Position numbers and translations under genes: made by a program. From Picosynechococcus sp. PCC 7003 (lineage in GTDB: Bacteria; Cyanobacteriota; Cyanobacteriia; Cyanobacteriales; MRBY01), in contig NZ_CP016474.1 of the NCBI RefSeq assembly GCF_001693255.1, positions 2,126,661 through 2,190,660 on the forward strand: 64,000 nucleotides of DNA, read 5' to 3'. Below the pieces are notes generated by a model. It saw only the letters and a list, made by a program, of their open reading frames with translations, was not told the origin of the DNA and did not search any database. Within the stretch, counting starts at the first letter, position 1. Each line of letters starts with the position of its first letter. Shown one piece after another: positions 9,727-39,452 of this stretch.

Positions 9727-10158
9727 ATGTGGCTAAACTTTCTGGCCCTATTGCCATCAACCGTCTTAACGGTGTTATTGATTGCGATCGCCTTCTTGAG
9801 GTTCTATGACCAAACCGACTTTGAATTCCTCGGATACATCACCCAGCCGAGAAGCTGGAGCAACGGATGCACTGTGGCAGCCCTCCTGGCTACATTGGCT
9901 AATTTCGGCGTTGAGTGGAACCGTCGAAATCGAGAAACAAACCGCTTGGCTGAAGAAAAGCAATGCCGAAGCGAGGATCGCGCACGAGCAGAGACTGAAA
10001 AAGCTGAAAGCAGAGAACGCGAGACTCGCCGAACTCGAATCGAAACTCGATGCCGTATTGCCGAAATACAGTTCCAGCTTGACCCCTCCGAGCGAAACCG
10101 ACGGGCATTAAGGGAAGCTTTGGCTCTCCTCGCCGAATATGGGGAGCTATTTTCGTAA
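9727..10158 (+). CDS. Nested-ORF family module A1, outer frame: small membrane coiled-coil protein
   Basis: No family recognised. The 143-residue outer product has two predicted membrane segments (FLALLPSTVLTVLLIAIAFL, about 4-23, and VAALLATLANFGVEW, about 45-60). A highly charged Arg/Glu coiled coil follows (about 62-105), then a conserved tail RTRIETRCRIAEIQFQL and LLAEYGELF. The ATG at 9727 is shared with A2-A4; a TTG at 9718 is in frame. No good ribosome-binding site precedes it. Most of this gene overlaps, in the +1 frame, the inner ORF at 9806-10111. It is the first of four tandem copies. Confidence 0.6.
   Translation: MWLNFLALLPSTVLTVLLIAIAFLRFYDQTDFEFLGYITQPRSWSNGCTVAALLATLANFGVEWNRRNRETNRLAEEKQCRSEDRARAETEKAESRERETRRTRIETRCRIAEIQFQLDPSERNRRALREALALLAEYGELFS
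9806..10111 (+). CDS. Nested-ORF family module A1, inner +1-frame coiled-coil protein
   Basis: A 101-residue ORF wholly inside the outer gene. Its ATG follows GAGG by four bases (TTGAGGTTCTATG), a ribosome-binding site kept in nearly all copies. The product has a Ser/Thr-rich N-terminus, a Trp-rich amphipathic patch (WQPSWLHWLISALSGTVEIE), a Lys/Glu coiled coil, the leucine-repeat motif ENARLAELESKLD and a polar tail ending ETDGH. No Cys or lipobox is present. Between copies this frame changes mostly silently, which argues that it is translated. Function unknown. Confidence 0.55.
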   Translation: MTKPTLNSSDTSPSREAGATDALWQPSWLHWLISALSGTVEIEKQTAWLKKSNAEARIAHEQRLKKLKAENARLAELESKLDAVLPKYSSSLTPPSETDGH

Positions 10159-10214
10159 GGGCGATCGCCCCGTGAGCCACCCATTAAAATGAAATTATCT
10201 TTCCCTTGCTTTAG

Positions 10215-10406
10215 ATGTGGCTAAACTTTCTGGCCCTATTGCCATCAACCGTTTTAACGGTATTACTGATTGCGATCGCCTTCTTGAGATTCTATGACCA
10301 AACCGACTTTGAATTCATCGGACTCATTGCCAACCCCCGACAGTGGAGCAACGGATTTACGGTGGCAGCCCTCTTGGCTACATTGGCTAATTTCGGCGTT
10401 GAGTGA
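10215..10406 (+). pseudogene. Nested-ORF module A2, outer frame truncated by stop
   Basis: Nearly identical to A1/A3/A4 through both membrane segments, then a TGA (10404-10406) replaces the codon for the Trp of VEW, leaving 63 residues without coiled coil or tail. Sequence beyond the inner-frame SALS block no longer resembles the family, so the module lost its 3' half, probably by deletion or recombination. Confidence 0.65.
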
Positions 10407-10482
10407 AACCCTCGAACCAAAAAACTATTTAGGAAATGTTGCCTTTCGCTATCTAGGAATCCTCGGAGATGTGTTGCAATGA
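10294..10482 (+). CDS. Nested-ORF module A2, inner frame with replaced C-terminus
   Basis: A 62-residue inner frame that keeps the Trp-rich segment (WQPSWLHWLISALSETLE) but then runs into unrelated sequence (YLGNVAFRYLGILGDVLQ). The coiled coil and LESK motif are gone. Its stop overlaps the start of the next gene as ATGA (10479-10482), so it could couple translation to that gene. The ribosome-binding site is weakened to GAGA. It may be a remnant. Confidence 0.4.
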   Translation: MTKPTLNSSDSLPTPDSGATDLRWQPSWLHWLISALSETLEPKNYLGNVAFRYLGILGDVLQ

Positions 10483-10793
10483 ATCCTTTGTTAAAGTTTT
10501 ATGCGGATAGTTTAGACTATCCCGAAGTAAGCGGCGCGGAACTGCTCGAACTTTTAACCATTCGGGATCAGCTTGCCCAACTTATTGATCGCTTCAATGC
10601 CTTAGATCAAACCCTACTGCTTAAGGCAGATTTGAAATTGCTTTTAAATGCTTCAGTAATTTATCCAGAAATTTCTCGTTTTATTAACTTAGAAACTTAC
10701 CGTAAGGAGAATCAAATTACACCAGAAAAGTGGTGGTGGTACATCGATGTTCTCGATCATCTCCCGCTTTCCAGTCTGCAAACAGCGGCTTGA
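10479..10793 (+). CDS. Hypothetical 104-residue protein
   Basis: Not recognised. A soluble, Leu-rich helical protein (LLELLTIRDQLAQLIDRFNALDQ) ending in a Trp triplet region (EKWWWYIDVLDHL). No membrane segment or signal peptide. GGAG lies ten bases before the ATG. It overlaps the stop of the A2 inner frame by four bases and lies between nested-ORF modules A2 and A3, so it may have arrived when the A2 3' half was replaced. Confidence 0.55.
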   Translation: MNPLLKFYADSLDYPEVSGAELLELLTIRDQLAQLIDRFNALDQTLLLKADLKLLLNASVIYPEISRFINLETYRKENQITPEKWWWYIDVLDHLPLSSLQTAA

Positions 10794-10916
10794 TTTAACA
10801 GAATGTTAACAGGTCGTATATTTCATCCCTTAATATGTCCTTAATATGTAAGTAATCCTGAGGCGATCGCCCCGTGAGTGACCCGTTAAAATGAAATTAT
10901 CTTTCCCTAGTCTGAA

Positions 10917-11390
10917 ATGTGGCTAAACTTTCTGGCGTTACTGCCATCGACGACCTTAACGGTATTACTGATTGCGATCGCCTTCTTGAGGTTCTATGAC
11001 CAAACCGACTTTGAATTCCTCGGATACATTGCCAACCCCCGACAGTGGAGCAACGGATTCACTGTGGCAGCCCTCTTGGCTACATTGGCTAATTTCGGCG
11101 TTGAGTGGAACCGTCGAAATCGAGAAACAAACCGCTTGGTTGAAGAAGCACAACGAAGAGCTAAGGAAGAGCAACGCAGAATTCGAGAAGAGCAACGCAG
11201 AGTGGCTCAGGAAAGAGCAGATGAGTCTCGAAGAACTGAGGAGAGAGAACGCCAAATTGCGCGAACTCGAATCGAAACTCGATGCCGTATTGCCGAAATA
11301 CAATTCCAGCTTGACCCCTCCGAGCGAAACCGACGGGCATTAAAGGCGGCTCTGGCGGTGTTGGCGGAATATGGGGAGCTATTTCCGTAA
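10917..11390 (+). CDS. Nested-ORF module A3, outer frame
   Basis: 157 residues, the longest A copy. Membrane segments and the tail ending AEYGELFP match A1. The coiled coil is 14 residues longer and built of short Glu/Arg units (EEQRRIREEQRRVAQE). Length differences from A1 and A4 are exact multiples of three bases, so both frames stay open through the variable part. Confidence 0.6.
   Translation: MWLNFLALLPSTTLTVLLIAIAFLRFYDQTDFEFLGYIANPRQWSNGFTVAALLATLANFGVEWNRRNRETNRLVEEAQRRAKEEQRRIREEQRRVAQERADESRRTEERERQIARTRIETRCRIAEIQFQLDPSERNRRALKAALAVLAEYGELFP
10996..11343 (+). CDS. Nested-ORF module A3, inner frame
   Basis: 115 residues, start preceded by TTGAGGTTCT. Core segments WLHWLISALSGTVEIE and ENAKLRELESKLD are as in A4, with ENAKL encoded by different synonymous codons (GCC and TTG against GCG and CTC). 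The outer frame there changes from ERETRR to ERQIAR. The middle is expanded with KSNAE-type units. Confidence 0.55.
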   Translation: MTKPTLNSSDTLPTPDSGATDSLWQPSWLHWLISALSGTVEIEKQTAWLKKHNEELRKSNAEFEKSNAEWLRKEQMSLEELRRENAKLRELESKLDAVLPKYNSSLTPPSETDGH

Positions 11391-11446
11391 GGGCAATCGC
11401 CTAGTGAGCTACCCGTTAAAATGAAATTACCTCTATCTTGCTTGAG

Positions 11447-11821
11447 ATGTGGCTAAACTTTCTGGCCCTATTGCCATCAACCGTCTTAACGGTTTTATTG
11501 ATTGCGATCGCCTTCTTGAGGTTCTATGACCAAACCGACTTTGAATTCATCGGACTCATTGCCAACCCCCGACAGTGGAGCAACGGATTCACTGTGGCAG
11601 CCCTCTTGGCTACATTGGCTAATTTCGGCGTTGAGTGGAACCGTCGAAATCGAGAAACAAACCGCTTGGCTGAGGCAAGAGAACGCGAAACTCGCCGAAC
11701 TCGAATCGAAACTCGATGCCGTATTGCCGAAATACAGTTCCAGCTTGACCCCTCCGAGCGAAACCGACGGGCATTAAGGGAAGCGTTGGCTCTCCTCGCC
11801 GAATATGGGGATTTGTTTTAG
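11447..11821 (+). CDS. Nested-ORF module A4, outer frame
   Basis: 124 residues, the shortest intact copy. The charged coiled coil is reduced to about ten residues between NRRNRETNRL and RTRIETRC, while both membrane segments and the tail AEYGDLF are kept. This defines the minimal module. The start ATG follows the A-type leader, whose HIP1 octamer is mutated here. Confidence 0.6.
   Translation: MWLNFLALLPSTVLTVLLIAIAFLRFYDQTDFEFIGLIANPRQWSNGFTVAALLATLANFGVEWNRRNRETNRLAEARERETRRTRIETRCRIAEIQFQLDPSERNRRALREALALLAEYGDLF
11526..11777 (+). CDS. Nested-ORF module A4, inner frame
   Basis: 83 residues. Trp-rich segment, then directly AWLRQENAKLAELESKLD and the tail ending ETDGH. With the variable coiled coil nearly absent it shows which inner-frame parts are constant: the start context, the WLISALSGTVEIE block and the LESKLD block. 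Confidence 0.55.
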   Translation: MTKPTLNSSDSLPTPDSGATDSLWQPSWLHWLISALSGTVEIEKQTAWLRQENAKLAELESKLDAVLPKYSSSLTPPSETDGH

Positions 11822-11857: not shown

Positions 11858-12298
11858 ATGAATGCTTCACTATATGACACTGATTTTTATACATGGACAG
11901 CACAGCAATGCGAGTTACTGCGTCACAAAAAATTTCACGAATTAGATTTAGGTCACTTGATTGAAGAGTTGGATGATTTGGGGAAGCGACACTATGATCA
12001 ACTGGAATCAAGGTTAGTCCAACTGATTGCCCATCTCCTCAAATGGCAAATTCAACATTGGCGACGTTCTAATAGTTGGCGCGCCAACATTCGTGTGCAA
12101 CGCACCTCCATCGAAAAACTATTACGGCGTAATCCTGGTCTCAAGTCTCGTTTGGATGAAGCAATGGCAGAAAGTTGGTCGGAAGCGCGGGATCTGGCGA
12201 TCGCCGAAACGGATTTACCGGATGAGCAATTTCCAGAAATTTGTCCGTTTACCCTCGTCGAAGTCTTATTGCCTGAGTTTTGGCCGGATCTCGCCTAA
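11858..12298 (+). CDS. DUF29 family protein
   Basis: 146 residues matching the DUF29 family common in cyanobacteria, of unknown molecular function. Signature features seen: YDTDFYTWTAQQCELLR near the start, then IEELDDLGKRHYDQLESRLVQLIAHLLKWQIQ and RANIRVQR. I chose the ATG at 11858 (MNASLYDTDF) rather than the GTG at 11831 because DUF29 proteins begin with this block. DUF29 genes are often found in variable regions next to toxin-antitoxin genes, as here. Confidence 0.85.
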   Translation: MNASLYDTDFYTWTAQQCELLRHKKFHELDLGHLIEELDDLGKRHYDQLESRLVQLIAHLLKWQIQHWRRSNSWRANIRVQRTSIEKLLRRNPGLKSRLDEAMAESWSEARDLAIAETDLPDEQFPEICPFTLVEVLLPEFWPDLA

Positions 12299-12356
12299 GA
12301 ATTTTGACAGTCTAACTCTGACTCAGTTAGGTAGACGCAATGAAATAAGTTATTGC

Positions 12357-12424
12357 TTGTTTAAATTGTCTGACCTTCTTGTCATCAGTTGCTTTAATGG
12401 TATTATTGATGGCGATCGCCTTCA
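12357..12424 (+). pseudogene. Relic of a fifth nested-ORF module (A5)
   Basis: About 65 bases align with the start of A2 (10218-10282 region) at most positions, including TTAATGGTATTATTGAT and the HIP1-containing GCGATCGCCTTC. No frame continues, and the sequence beyond 12424 is unrelated. It marks a once longer array interrupted by the DUF29 and toxin-antitoxin genes. Confidence 0.6.
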
Positions 12425-12506
12425 GTGCGGTCTGAAGGGCCTAAACACCTTGACTATAATTAGAGAACATATCAAAAATGCTCTCAGAAAAGGGGACATA
12501 CAGATA

Positions 12507-12740
12507 ATGAGTCAACGTACCCTACAGCTTAATTTTCCCGATGCCGTTGAACAAAGCGACCAAGAACTAAAGGTCTTAATCGCCGCTAAATTGTATGAAA
12601 ATGGGACTCTCACCGCTGCTCAAGGGACAGAGTTAGCTGGTTTAAGCAAAAAAGCTTTCCTTGAAACAATGGGACAATTCCATGTTTCTGTCTTTAGTCA
12701 CTCAGTGGCAGACTTAGATAACGACCGCAAAAATGCCTAA
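12507..12740 (+). CDS. UPF0175 family antitoxin
   Basis: 77-residue protein matching UPF0175 (AAKLYENGTLTAAQGTELAGLSKKAFLETMGQFHVSVF), a small DNA-binding-like antitoxin family usually paired with DUF3368 PIN-like toxins. The frame is open far upstream, but the ATG at 12507 gives the family N-terminus. Its stop overlaps the ATG of the toxin gene at 12733 by eight bases, the usual coupled arrangement. The antitoxin is intact while the toxin is broken. Confidence 0.85.
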   Translation: MSQRTLQLNFPDAVEQSDQELKVLIAAKLYENGTLTAAQGTELAGLSKKAFLETMGQFHVSVFSHSVADLDNDRKNA

Positions 12741-13197
12741 AGTTGTCATTGCCGACTCCAGTTGCTTGATCATTCTCAGTAAAATCGAGGAGTTAGCGGT
12801 TCTTCAGTGGCTATACTAAACTATCTACATCACACTAGAAATTGCGGTGGAGTTTGGTGAAGCTTTCCCCCCTTGGATTTGTGTAAAAGCTGCTCAAAAT
12901 AAACATTTTTAGGCAATCCTTGCCACCAAACTTGATCGTGGTGAGGCTAAGGCGATCGCCTTAGCCCAAGAGAAAGAAAATGCATTGATCATTTTGGATG
13001 ATCTCAAAGGCCGAAAAGTTGCTCAAGAACAAGGCCTCATCTATACAGGTACTCTGGGCGTGATTAGTCGGGCCACGGAAAAAGGCTACTACCAGGCGAT
13101 CAAACCCATTCTCCAAAAGATTATGCAGACAAATTTCCGTATTTCCCAGAATATTATTGACGCTTTACTGAGCTATCACGGCGAGCTTCTTGATTAG
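12733..13197 (+). pseudogene. DUF3368 (PIN-like) toxin, inactivated by two in-frame stops
   Basis: The frame starts MPKVVIADSSCLIILSKIEE, the usual DUF3368 opening with the PIN-type Asp. It then hits TAA at 12817-12819 and TAG at 12910-12912, and resumes in the same frame as LDRGEAKAIALAQEKENA and LIILDDLKGRKVA to the normal end. No frameshift is needed, so these are point changes in a full-length gene. The product cannot be made unless both stops are read through. Confidence 0.85.
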
Positions 13198-34740: not shown

Positions 34741-34807
34741 TTAACATGAAGATTTTGCTGAGTCATTTCAAACAAATGGCTAGATTGGCGCAGGTTACAA
34801 TAAAACT

Positions 34808-35272
34808 ATGGTAAGCTTCCTGGCGCTGCTGCCCCGTACCCTCACCACCTTTCTCTATGCCGTTGCTGCCCTCCTGAGGTTCTATGCCGACACCGACACC
34901 ACCCCAATCCAATTCCTCCCCCTCACCATCTGACCGTGGAGCTTCCTGGCGTTCGCGTTGGGGACAGCGGCTCTCCTGGCTAATCTCGGCCTTGAGTGGC
35001 ACACTGGAAATCGAAGCCGCGCACAAGCAGAAGATGAAAGACTACGAGCAGAGGAAGAAAGAAGACGAACAAGCGATCGCGAAACTCGACGCGATGATCT
35101 TGCAAACCAAGAAAGAAACCGAGCAGCTGAAGAAAGAGAACGAGCGGCTGGCCGTGCTCGAATCCAAAATCGATTCTTCCTTCTCCAAACACGGCATCAA
35201 CTTACCCCTAGCCCAGACACCCGAGCAGCCTTAGCCGATTTCCTCAGCTTCCTCCAGGAATATGGGGAATAG
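34808..35272 (+). pseudogene. Nested-ORF module B1, outer frame interrupted by TGA
   Basis: Reads MVSFLALLPRTLTTFLYAVA and on to PIQFLPLTI, then TGA at 34931-34933 where B2-B4 have Leu-Gln codons; the frame continues to EYGE at 35272. The change turns the inner frame's Phe-Ser into Asp-Arg without stopping it. A TTACAAT element lies ten bases before the ATG, as in B3. Confidence 0.7.
34884..35234 (+). CDS. Nested-ORF module B1, inner frame
   Basis: 116 residues, intact although the outer frame is broken. Pro/Ser-rich N-terminus (PTPTPPQSNSSPSPS), RLSWLISALSGTLEIE, a Lys/Gln/Glu coiled coil and KKENERLAVLESKIDSSF. The start is preceded by CTGAGGTTCT, matching the A modules. Survival of this frame alone is the best single argument that it is a gene. 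Confidence 0.6.
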   Translation: MPTPTPPQSNSSPSPSDRGASWRSRWGQRLSWLISALSGTLEIEAAHKQKMKDYEQRKKEDEQAIAKLDAMILQTKKETEQLKKENERLAVLESKIDSSFSKHGINLPLAQTPEQP

Positions 35273-35276
35273 GTAG

Positions 35277-35304
35277 GCGATCGCCCCTTGAGTAAAATGA
35301 AAAC
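35277..35304 (+). promoter_or_regulatory. Conserved leader of nested-ORF module B2
   Basis: A HIP1 octamer, CCCCTTGAGT and AAAATGAAAAC directly before the ATG. It is the shortened form of the A leader and recurs almost unchanged at 38972-38999 before B4. If GTAAAAT is the -10 element, transcripts would be leaderless or nearly so. Confidence 0.45.
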
Positions 35305-35832
35305 ATGACGAGTTTTCTGGCCCTACTGCCCCGTACCCTCACCACCTTTCTCTATGCCGTTGCTGCTCTCCTGAGGTTCTATGCCGACACCGACACCACC
35401 CCAATCCAATTCCTCCCCCTCACCATCCTTCAGTGGAGCTTCCTGGCGTTCACGTTGGGGACAGCGGCTCTCCTGGCTAATCTCGGCCTTGAGTGGCACA
35501 CTGGAAATCGAAGCCGAGCTCAGGCAGATGAAGCAAGAAGACGAACAGAAGAGGAAAGACTACGAGCAGAGAAAGATAGAAGACGAGCAGAGGAAGAGAG
35601 AATACGAGCAGAGGAAGAGAGAATACGAGCAGAGAAAGATAGAAGACGAGCAAGCGATCGCGAAACTCGACGCGATGATCTTGCAAACCAAGAAAGAGAA
35701 CGAGCGGCTGGCCGTGCTCGAATCCAAAATCGATTCTTCCTTCTCCAAACACGGCATCAACTTGCCCCTAGCCCAGACACCAGAGCAGCCCTAGTAGATT
35801 TCCTCAGCTTCCTCCAGGAATATGGGGAATAA
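35305..35832 (+). CDS. Nested-ORF module B2, outer frame
   Basis: 175 residues, the longest copy. Two membrane segments (FLYAVAALLRFYA, about 13-25, and WSFLAFTLGTAALLANLGLEW, about 41-61), a 70-residue Arg/Glu coiled coil of repeated seven-residue units such as AEEERIR, then GRARIQNRFFLLQTRHQL and the tail FLQEYGE. It aligns with the A outer frame along its full length (LLP-T---L---A-LRFY, LLANLGLEW, EYGE), so A and B are distant paralogues. Confidence 0.6.
   Translation: MTSFLALLPRTLTTFLYAVAALLRFYADTDTTPIQFLPLTILQWSFLAFTLGTAALLANLGLEWHTGNRSRAQADEARRRTEEERLRAEKDRRRAEEERIRAEEERIRAEKDRRRASDRETRRDDLANQERERAAGRARIQNRFFLLQTRHQLAPSPDTRAALVDFLSFLQEYGE
35381..35794 (+). CDS. Nested-ORF module B2, inner frame
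   Basis: 137 residues. Same layout as B1, with the coiled coil enlarged by seven-residue units (YEQRKRE, YEQRKIE). Compared with A4, the WLISALSGT segment differs at ATT/ATC, GCG/GCC, GGA/GGC and ACC/ACA, all silent here, while the outer frame changes Phe to Leu, Val to Leu, Asn to His and Arg to Thr at the same places. Confidence 0.6.
   Translation: MPTPTPPQSNSSPSPSFSGASWRSRWGQRLSWLISALSGTLEIEAELRQMKQEDEQKRKDYEQRKIEDEQRKREYEQRKREYEQRKIEDEQAIAKLDAMILQTKKENERLAVLESKIDSSFSKHGINLPLAQTPEQP
35541..35645 (+). repeat. Five tandem 21-bp units encoding heptads in two frames
   Basis: Units begin ACGAGCAGAG (first one ACGAACAGAA) at 35541, 35562, 35583, 35604 and 35625; units three and four are identical. 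Twenty-one bases equal one coiled-coil heptad, so adding or losing a unit keeps both frames open and in phase. It lies in the shared coiled-coil part of B2 and is expanded relative to B1, B3 and B4. Confidence 0.85.
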
Positions 35833-37912: not shown

Positions 37913-38542
37913 ATGCCTCTCCACCCAAAAATCTACCGCAAACTGTTGGTGGTCTTTGCCCTCATGACCCTAATTTTGCTCATTGGGTTCATTCCTGTCC
38001 GCTTAATTTTGGCACAGATTCAATCTCCAACACCCCAAGCCATCCTGACCCTTGGCGGCGGTTTAGGTCGGGAAGAATTTGCCGCTAACTTTGCCCAACA
38101 GCACCCAGCCTTAGACGTCTGGATCTCATCAGGCATTCCCGCGCCCCAAGCCAAAGCTATCTTCCAACATGCCGCTATTCCTGAAAATCGCATTCACCTC
38201 GATTATCGCGCTGTGGATACCGTCACCAACTTCACCACCCTCGTTAAAGACTTTGGCGATCGCCAGATCCAGCACGTTTACCTGATCACCTCGGACTTTC
38301 ACATGCGTCGCGCCCAGGCGATCGCCTTCTTTGTTTTCGGCAGTCGCGGCATCATCACGACACCTGTCCCCATTCCCTCCAATCAGCCCAACGAAACCCT
38401 GTGGCATGTGTCCCGGGACATTGGGCGCTCAATCCTCTGGATCATCACCGGCCGCACCGGGGCCAGCCTGCATTCCCAGTTGAATTCTCACAACCTCGAA
38501 CAAATAACTAAATCAGCAAAAGTTACAATGGAACAATGGTAA
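37913..38542 (+). CDS. YdcF/SanA-like DUF218 protein
   Basis: 209 residues: one N-terminal membrane helix (LVVFALMTLILLIGFIPVRLIL) followed by a DUF218 domain with the opening AILTLGGGLGREE, the DYRAVDT--N block and VYLITSDFHMRRA. Family members (SanA, YdcF, ElyC) affect envelope polymer synthesis, though their reaction is unclear. Start taken at the ATG at 37913; a TTG precedes it. Its stop overlaps the ATG of nested module B3 by seven bases. Confidence 0.88.
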   Translation: MPLHPKIYRKLLVVFALMTLILLIGFIPVRLILAQIQSPTPQAILTLGGGLGREEFAANFAQQHPALDVWISSGIPAPQAKAIFQHAAIPENRIHLDYRAVDTVTNFTTLVKDFGDRQIQHVYLITSDFHMRRAQAIAFFVFGSRGIITTPVPIPSNQPNETLWHVSRDIGRSILWIITGRTGASLHSQLNSHNLEQITKSAKVTMEQW

Positions 38543-38967
38543 GCCTTCTGGCCCTATTGCCCCGTGGCCTCACCACCTTTCTCTATGCCGTTGCTGCCCT
38601 CCTGAGGTTTTATGCCGACACCGACACCACCCCAATCCAACTCATCCCCCTCACTATCCTCCAATGGAGCTTCCTGGCGTTCGCATTGGGGACAGCGGCT
38701 CTCCTGGCTAATCTCGGCCTTGAGTGGCACGCTGGAAATCAAAGCCGAAACCGAGAGATTGAAGCAAGAGAACGCGAAACTCGACGCGATGATCTTGCAA
38801 ACCAAGAAAGAAACCGAGCAGCTGAAGAAAGAGAACGAGCGGCTCGCCGTGCTCGAATCCAAAATCGATTCTTCCTTCTCCAGACACGGCATCAACTTGC
38901 CCCTAGCCGAGAAACCGAAGCAGCCCTAGCCGATTTCCTCAGTTTCCTTCAGGAATATGGAGATTAA
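38536..38967 (+). CDS. Nested-ORF module B3, outer frame
   Basis: 143 residues. Same start type as B1 (TTACAAT upstream, ATGGTAAGC), two membrane segments, a short coiled coil (REIEARERETRRDDLANQERNR) and EYGD at the end. Its ATG lies inside the last codons of the YdcF-like gene, so it may be translated from that operon as well as from its own promoter. Confidence 0.6.
   Translation: MVSLLALLPRGLTTFLYAVAALLRFYADTDTTPIQLIPLTILQWSFLAFALGTAALLANLGLEWHAGNQSRNREIEARERETRRDDLANQERNRAAEERERAARRARIQNRFFLLQTRHQLAPSRETEAALADFLSFLQEYGD
38612..38929 (+). CDS. Nested-ORF module B3, inner frame
   Basis: 105 residues. Start context CTGAGGTTTTATG. Segment RLSWLISALSGTLEIK, then ERLKQENAKLDAMILQTKKE with regular Leu spacing, and RLAVLESKIDSSFSRHGINLP. 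The QENAKL motif matches A4 exactly, linking the A and B inner frames. Confidence 0.55.
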   Translation: MPTPTPPQSNSSPSLSSNGASWRSHWGQRLSWLISALSGTLEIKAETERLKQENAKLDAMILQTKKETEQLKKENERLAVLESKIDSSFSRHGINLPLAEKPKQP

Positions 38968-38999
38968 AAAGGCGATCGCCCCCTGAGTAAAATGAAAAC

Positions 39000-39452
39000 A
39001 TGACGAGTTTTCTGGCCCTATTGCCCCGTGGCCTCACCACCTTTCTCTATGCCGTTGCCGCCCTCCTGAGGTTTTATGCCGACACCGACACCATCCCAAT
39101 CCAACTCCTCCCCCTCACCATCCTTCAGTGGAGCTTCCTGGCGTTCGCATTGGGGACAGCGGCTCTCCTGGCTAATCTCGGCCTTGAGTGGCACGCTGGA
39201 AATCAAAGCCGAAACCGAGAGATTGAAGCAAGAGAACGCGAAACTCGACGCGATGATCTTGCGGACGAAGAACGAGCGAAAGCAGATCGAGAACGAGACC
39301 GAGCAGCTCAAGAAAGAGAACGAGCGGCTGGCCGTGCTCGAATCCAAAATCGATTCTTCCTTCTCCAAACACGGCATCAACTTGCCCCTAGCCCAGACAC
39401 CAGAGCAGCCCTAGCCGATTTCCTCAGTTTCCTCCAGGAATATGGTGATTAA
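39000..39452 (+). CDS. Nested-ORF module B4, outer frame
   Basis: 150 residues, start type as B2 (ATGACGAG after the HIP1 leader). Seven residues longer than B3 through the insertion DEERAKADRERDRAAQE, which keeps both frames. Ends EYGD; its last codons contain the ATG from which the WcaF-like frame is open. Confidence 0.6.
   Translation: MTSFLALLPRGLTTFLYAVAALLRFYADTDTIPIQLLPLTILQWSFLAFALGTAALLANLGLEWHAGNQSRNREIEARERETRRDDLADEERAKADRERDRAAQERERAAGRARIQNRFFLLQTRHQLAPSPDTRAALADFLSFLQEYGD
39076..39414 (+). CDS. Nested-ORF module B4, inner frame
   Basis: 112 residues, with MPTPTPSQSNSSPSPS, the shared WLISALSGTLEIK core, and a coiled coil enlarged by RTKNERKQIENE relative to B3. C-terminus KHGINLPLAQTPEQP is identical to B1 and B2, whereas B3 ends EKPKQP. 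Confidence 0.55.
   Translation: MPTPTPSQSNSSPSPSFSGASWRSHWGQRLSWLISALSGTLEIKAETERLKQENAKLDAMILRTKNERKQIENETEQLKKENERLAVLESKIDSSFSKHGINLPLAQTPEQP

Follow-up and report, generated by a model that had tools for sequence, protein, structure and literature searches.

A multi-copy cyanobacterial gene family with probable coding in two nested same-strand frames

Eight copies of a nested frame pair in Picosynechococcus

The window examined in this study is a stretch of 64,000 nucleotides from Picosynechococcus sp. PCC 7003 (NZ_CP016474.1 positions 2,126,661 to 2,190,660; assembly GCF_001693255.1). It carries eight copies, A1 to A4 and B1 to B4, of a small locus in which one open reading frame (ORF), called here the inner frame, is nested in the +1 frame of another, the outer frame. 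About three additional copies are present elsewhere in this 3.35 Mb genome, two of them at 445 kb and another at 459 kb. The evidence presented below makes it very probable that these loci belong to a genuine dual-coding gene family of cyanobacterial chromosomes. Judged from sequence comparisons, the nested layout is real, old, and selected in both frames.

An earlier note on this DNA described a +1-frame ORF of 62 to 137 codons with its own ATG in each copy, and such an ORF is indeed found in all eight (Table 1). It lies fully within the outer ORF on the same strand, except that the outer ORF is shortened in A2 and B1. The same note credited every copy with an outer ORF, which is true of six copies, but a TGA codon interrupts the frame after 63 codons in A2 and at codon 42 in B1. 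Likewise, an inner start at outer codon 27 is correct for the A copies, whereas the B copies start at codon 26. The conserved GAGG that was noted upstream of the inner ATG is present in seven copies and is replaced by GAGA in A2, and its spacing is four bases rather than five to eight.

Table 1. Nested frames and associated sequence elements in the window (positions are those of the window)
Feature	Positions	Strand	Length or state	Predicted character and basis
A1 outer ORF	9727..10158	+	143 codons	membrane hairpin of two helices preceding a long Arg/Glu-rich helix; AlphaFold2 and homologues
A1 inner ORF	9806..10111	+	+1 frame, 101 codons	N-terminus rich in S/T/P, Trp-rich segment, single long helix; AlphaFold2 and homologues
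A1 GAGG	9798..9801	+	four bases 5' of inner ATG	Shine-Dalgarno-like
A2 outer ORF	10215..10406	+	TGA after 63 codons	
A2 inner ORF	10294..10482	+	62 codons	family-like for only about the first 42
A3 outer ORF	10917..11390	+	157 codons	
A3 inner ORF	10996..11343	+	115 codons	
A4 outer ORF	11447..11821	+	124 codons counted from ATG	
A4 inner ORF	11526..11777	+	83 codons	
B1 outer ORF	34808..34933	+	TGA after 41 codons	in-frame outer homology picks up again to 35272
B1 inner ORF	34884..35234	+	116 codons, intact	
B1 TACAAT	34796..34801	+	six bases 5' of outer ATG	-10-like
B2 outer ORF	35305..35832	+	175 codons	
B2 inner ORF	35381..35794	+	137 codons	
B2 TAAAAT	35293..35298	+	six bases 5' of outer ATG	-10-like
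B3 outer ORF	38536..38967	+	143 codons	
B3 inner ORF	38612..38929	+	105 codons	
B3 TACAAT	38524..38529	+	six bases 5' of outer ATG	-10-like
B4 outer ORF	39000..39452	+	150 codons	
B4 inner ORF	39076..39414	+	112 codons	
B4 TAAAAT	38988..38993	+	six bases 5' of outer ATG	-10-like

Copy A2 is joined at 10407-10793 to unrelated sequence, where its inner ORF enters an overlapping ORF of 104 codons that has no Pfam match. A stretch at 12340-12440 (TTCTTGTCATCAGTTGCTTTAATGGTATTATTGATGGCGATCGCCTTC) resembles the beginning of an A copy but has no intact frame, and probably represents a decayed fifth A copy.

Substitution patterns indicate selection in both frames

A total of 151 anchors yielded 133 distinct copies, and the 97 that carry no early stop in either frame were used for tests of selection. 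Three of these (L068, L080, and L196) are frame-shifted. Differences at each outer codon position were counted in 238 copy pairs with 80-97% identity. In the 5' outer-only region, the first, second, and third positions differ at 0.121, 0.033, and 0.335 per codon, and the corresponding values in the 3' outer-only region are 0.157, 0.093, and 0.439. Within the overlap the values are 0.138, 0.082, and 0.118, and they change little when the three frame-shifted copies are omitted (0.139, 0.083, and 0.118; 227 pairs). For the same pairs, the rate at outer third positions is approximately three- to fourfold lower in the overlap than in each of the flanks. Because this rate falls while the rate at outer first positions, which are the wobble positions of the inner frame, is not raised, we conclude that the inner frame slows the overlap while the outer frame continues to constrain it.

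Ratio tests were conducted with 39 pairs in which each copy was used once, many of them paralogues from one locus. The two outer-only flanks give outer omega values of 0.095 and 0.075. In the overlap, the ratio for the inner frame (dNN/dNS) is 0.415 (0.319-0.533) and that for the outer frame (dNN/dSN) is 0.436 (0.330-0.569). These values reveal purifying selection on both frames, with reservations that arise from the 5'-flank and antisense controls described below. Because selection acts on both frames, we favor the first of the two readings offered in the earlier note, a two-protein module at each locus, over the second, in which a real inner gene lies within an outer frame that is simply open.

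Conservation of the inner start and distortion of codon usage

When outer synonymous codons are redrawn with the codon usage of the window, the inner frame remains open in a median of 0.8% of draws across the 97 copies, and this value rises to 8% when codons are only permuted within each gene. The inner frame is thus open more often than chance predicts. The third sense frame is open in none of the 97. We nevertheless rejected inner-frame openness as the main evidence, as the antisense frame is often open as well. Because openness by itself is weak evidence, the case rests on the substitution pattern, codon usage, and start-codon conservation.

Codon usage was examined for 13 copies, found in the window, elsewhere in its genome, or in PCC 7117, and was compared with real ORF pieces of 100 codons, whose 5th percentile corresponds to a z of -1.95. 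Outer-frame usage is distorted in the overlap (z of -2.7 to -6.3) but not outside it (-1.8 to 1.4). Inner-frame usage is distorted too, much as in the unused third frame. Thus, codon usage shows constraint on the outer frame and does not by itself single out the inner frame. The same 13 copies give no answer as to which frame is older, because both are distorted in the overlap.

The inner ATG is made at a Tyr codon within an RFY motif in 100 of 113 copies, and three further copies lack the motif. In each of the 13 copies without an ATG at the Tyr codon, the next codon supplies one, compared with 18 of the other 100 (Fisher p of 5e-9, without correction for kinship). At the Shine-Dalgarno-like site, 60 of 93 copies encode Arg with AGG or AGA and the remaining 33 with CGN. 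Elsewhere, AGG and AGA account for 133 of 646 Arg codons in long frames of the window and for 10 of 86 in the 3' outer-only region. These data show conservation of the inner start and of the Arg codon context in which it lies. A programmed +1 frameshift to a fused product is disfavored, given that a +1 stop occurs three codons before the inner ATG in 54 of the 97 copies and that the ATG is conserved.

Loss of the outer frame is more common than loss of the inner frame

Frame loss was tallied after 19 of the 133 copies were dropped because of a missing anchor or a contig end. A first set comprises 52 usable A- and B-type copies, which come from the window, the rest of its genome, and related genomes. 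Neither frame has an early stop in 42 of these, the outer frame is cut while the inner is open in 10, and the inner alone is broken in none. The group of 42 includes a frame swap (L080) and an outer frameshift past the inner end (L068). A second set of 62 copies from other searches was found mostly with an inner profile, which introduces a bias towards the inner frame. Here, both frames are open in 51 copies, the outer is cut in seven, the inner is broken with an open outer in three, and both are broken in one. Two of the seven outer-cut copies (L192 and L164) are anchor artefacts, and the three inner-broken copies are L187 and, via indels, L190 and L196. The earlier note had proposed that frequent breakage of the inner frame beside an intact outer frame would refute dual coding, and the counts of 0 of 52 and 3 of 62 reveal no such trend.

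By reading the tables, we find that every first-set genome with an outer-cut copy also has an intact copy. Thus, the inner product of an outer-cut copy may function with an outer product made from another copy.

In L080, L190, and L196, indels exchange the frames so that the outer N-terminus is joined to the inner C-terminus. These copies are natural frame-swap fusions.

Distribution and subfamilies

Among 120 related genomes, A3 outer is matched in 17 and A3 inner in 16, with the genome of the window included in each count. Profile and alignment names in the searches that follow (A2, A3, A4, and A6) denote alignments and are distinct from the window copies. Across 386 genomes of the phylum, inner profile A2 identifies 24 genomes, outer profile A3 (subfamilies C and D) identifies 29, and inner profile A4 identifies 27. 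Two of the last group (G033 and G093) have the match inside frames of 657 and 517 codons, which look like unrelated coiled coils. An inner match with profile A2 or A4 is also present in 27 of the 29 genomes with an outer match. The other two are G347, which shows a +1 ORF of 106 codons, and G433, which shows a +1 piece of 52 codons. When named genomes were scanned with an inner profile, 86 relatives were recovered, of which 80 were kept, including examples from Nodosilinea, Leptolyngbya, Synechocystis salina, Snowella, and Microcystis. No match was found in IMG/VR with the outer profile, in plasmids with the A3 inner and B4 outer queries, or in phages with the A3 outer and B4 inner queries.

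Subfamilies A and B share approximately 35% identity in each frame. Outer proteins of subfamily C begin with MPDFQTF or MFDLQTL, and subfamily D is found in genomes of another family of the class. Outer proteins of both C and D retain the membrane hairpin, the Arg/Glu helix, and the C-terminal helix, and their inner proteins retain the S/T/P-rich start, a Trp-containing segment, and the coil. The relative frame is unchanged. This four-way division is our own reading of the sequences. The C- and D-type copies are mostly outside the set of 133 copies and its frame count. One of them (G445) appears broken in both frames, and a copy at 132 kb in G040 has stops in both. Searches of the literature, with most subscription papers outside their reach, found no description of such a family in cyanobacteria.

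Predicted protein structures and coil lengths

The AlphaFold2 model for the A1 outer protein (mean pLDDT of 83) contains helices at residues 3-7, 11-26, 29-32, 41-118, and 122-142. That for the A1 inner protein (pLDDT of 74) contains a single helix at residues 27-89. A run of Arg residues follows the second membrane helix of the outer protein, an arrangement that by the positive-inside rule points to a cytoplasmic location for the long helix.

Coil length was measurable for 67 of the 97 copies, and these provide 47 within-locus comparisons that are not independent. The observed differences are 7, 14, 18, 21, 25, 28, 32, 35, 42, 49, 50, 57, 108, and 115 codons. Every value is a sum of sevens and elevens, although this is trivially so above 59. 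Steps of 7 and 11 codons preserve the register of a coiled coil. Because the DNA is shared, the outer and inner proteins change length together.

A fold search with the outer model gave nothing with an E value below 0.001, and PDB sequences gave no match to the outer profile. The outer and inner proteins of the eight window copies have no Pfam or NCBIfam match at the curated cut-off, and a Pfam scan of 50 outer proteins revealed no family that matches more than two of them. Matches from Pfam, NCBIfam, PHROGs, PADLOC, and PDB are weak and scattered and mostly run across helix or coil. Among the best of these are PHROG 24502 with A3 outer (E of 0.0004) and ASRP of NCBIfam with B4 inner (E of 0.0002).

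Expression signals and a proposed mechanism

Of the 17 distinct regions upstream of B copies, 13 have a -10-like hexamer (TANRHT) exactly six bases from the outer ATG, compared with 0.17 expected from shuffles. Across 95 upstream regions of A copies, gaps of 22 (n=48) and 27 (n=15) to the anchor codon are the most frequent. From these arrangements, we infer that each copy yields a leaderless or short-leader mRNA and that an internal site serves the inner start.

In the mechanism that we propose, the promoter-like site of each copy would produce one mRNA whose 5' end falls at or just before the outer start codon, and both frames would be translated from it. In the outer product, a two-helix membrane hairpin would precede a long helix rich in Arg and Glu, and a short helix would form the C-terminal part. 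The inner product, initiated at the internal +1 ATG, would combine an N-terminus that is disordered with a Trp-rich segment and a coiled-coil helix. The two long helices would then pack against each other at the membrane, and the shared DNA would keep their coil lengths in step. That the two products are physically packed in this manner is a possibility to which we give somewhat less than even weight. As to function, a complex of the two proteins at the membrane ranks first in our view, ahead of a toxin-antitoxin unit.

Relationship to known overlapping genes

The closest known architecture is that of the phage genes Rz/Rz1, where the inner gene is embedded in the +1 frame of a gene for a membrane-anchored coiled-coil protein (PMC6139136). 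The cyanobacterial inner frame is embedded in the same way in a gene for a predicted membrane coiled-coil protein. However, Rz1 is an outer-membrane lipoprotein of phage lysis, whereas the cyanobacterial inner protein has no lipobox-like start. Cysteine is absent from all 26 A- and B-type inner proteins of alignment A2 and from the first 40 residues of all 50 inner proteins of alignment A6. Five of 12 C- and D-type inner proteins (alignment A4) do carry a Cys within the first 40 residues, and on reading we saw no signal peptide before it. In addition, the cyanobacterial outer protein has two predicted membrane helices, and the loci form multi-copy tandem arrays in the chromosome. The phage, plasmid, and viral-contig searches revealed no phage context, and the neighbors scanned are varied chromosomal genes. 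Because the architecture is like that of Rz/Rz1 but the lipoprotein and phage features are lacking, we regard the family as a new variant of embedded same-strand gene pairs, one that is chromosomal and present in many copies.

Like pop, laoB, and ano of Escherichia coli O157:H7, the family has two coding frames at one bacterial chromosomal locus. Those genes are reported as antisense pairs from one species, unlike the same-strand cyanobacterial copies, which are numerous and spread over many genera. To our knowledge, long same-strand nested genes with demonstrable selection in both frames are rare outside viruses. Under NCBI annotation rules, a gene embedded in another frame is disallowed unless individually justified (PMC8665328).

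There is enough material for tests, with approximately 90 A and B copies in which both frames are open, four subfamilies, and copies whose outer frame is naturally cut. The family is suited to the study of how overlaps evolve, of internal initiation on short-leader mRNAs, and of the assembly of two products from one locus. If the proteins do pair, overlapping coding would keep the partners matched in size. A more speculative idea, and one that we hold only tentatively, is that the overlap itself is the device, such that in an ancient class-wide family the expansion of repeats in DNA writes two coiled coils of equal length. If so, a membrane-anchored helix and its partner would lengthen or shorten jointly in heptad or hendecad steps and always fit.

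Alternative explanations

Several observations weigh against coding in both frames. In the 5' outer-only control, a pseudo-inner frame also gives low ratios (dNN/dNS of 0.51 and dSN/dSS of 0.24), and thus ratios of this type alone are not specific; the 3' control gives 1.20 and 0.76. The antisense frame in the outer-codon register has a synonymous enrichment of 1.23, compared with 1.32 for the inner frame and 1.38 for the outer frame, and it is open in 65 of the 97 copies. These copies were selected as open in both frames, and stop avoidance among them is therefore uninformative. The codon usage of the inner frame (z of -2.3 to -7.3) overlaps that of the unused third frame (-3.8 to -7.3). Finally, the 10 outer-cut copies of the first set indicate that some copies do without the outer frame.

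Some of these points would fit a model in which only the outer frame is a gene and the inner ORF is a by-product of repeat-rich, Arg/Glu-rich sequence that is poor in +1 stops. The antisense frame demonstrates that composition can leave long frames open, codon permutation within a copy sometimes preserves the inner frame, and inner codon usage is not genome-like. However, the slowing of outer third positions and the distortion of outer codon usage are specific to the overlap, the inner ATG moves to the next codon instead of vanishing, and no first-set copy has lost the inner frame alone. We regard this model as very improbable. The converse, that only the inner frame is a gene and the outer is a passenger or leader, draws support from the fact that single-frame cuts mostly strike the outer frame, as in B1 where the inner frame is intact. 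Yet both outer-only flanks evolve as outer codons, with the low omega values given above, and the inner wobble position differs at only 0.138 per codon, far from the 0.335-0.439 of the outer wobble in the flanks. This explanation likewise has very little to recommend it. Constraint on third positions by RNA structure rather than by a second protein is a negligible prospect, because the constraint follows codon phase, outer first and second positions are not slowed in the overlap, and the window has no Rfam match.

Other alternatives accept two proteins but assign them different roles. A domesticated phage lysis pair of the Rz/Rz1 (spanin) type would share the +1 embedded architecture and the membrane-anchored helical outer protein, and one inner protein weakly matches an Rz-like PHROG (E of 0.006). 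However, that match is to the inner protein and covers its coil. Together with the absence of Cys from the alignment A2 inner proteins, of matches to phages, plasmids, or IMG/VR, and of a lysis gene among the 20 neighbors scanned, this leaves a spanin origin with almost no credibility. More weight, though still a minority share, goes to a self-contained toxin-antitoxin unit in which a toxin-like membrane outer protein would be neutralized by the nested inner protein. The patchy distribution, the tandem copies, and the lack of a theme among the scanned neighbors are consistent with this, as is the retention of the inner frame when the outer is lost, which is expected of an antitoxin. On the other side, PADLOC gave only one weak match (Cas12f, E of 0.006), which lies over helix, and many copies per genome would be unusual for a toxin.

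Neighboring genes and other features

The B pairs flank genes for a glycosyltransferase and a DUF218 protein, and A1 comes after a glycosyltransferase gene. A DUF29 gene (11861-12298) lies directly 3' of A4, and a DUF29-like group recurs in the flanks of five of the 80 named loci, two of which were confirmed by Pfam. Clustering of flanking ORFs from these 80 loci reveals recurrences that are mostly within groups appearing orthologous, including an ABC-type group found at 16 loci and several families that each recur at three or four. A Pfam scan of 20 of the 44 neighbors listed for 24 loci found no common theme. The neighbors vary from locus to locus, with GlmS-like, CHAD, argininosuccinate synthase, PIG-L, Uma2, and DUF29 proteins among the 20. 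We therefore rejected the idea of shared partner genes, and the nested unit looks self-contained.

A long antisense ORF faces B4 at 39018-39380. It is probably a by-product of coding on the other strand, consistent with the frequent openness of such a frame across the family. A possible toxin-antitoxin pair is located at 12508-13197, where a piece of 70 codons (12985-13197) matches DUF3368 and the preceding frame looks interrupted.

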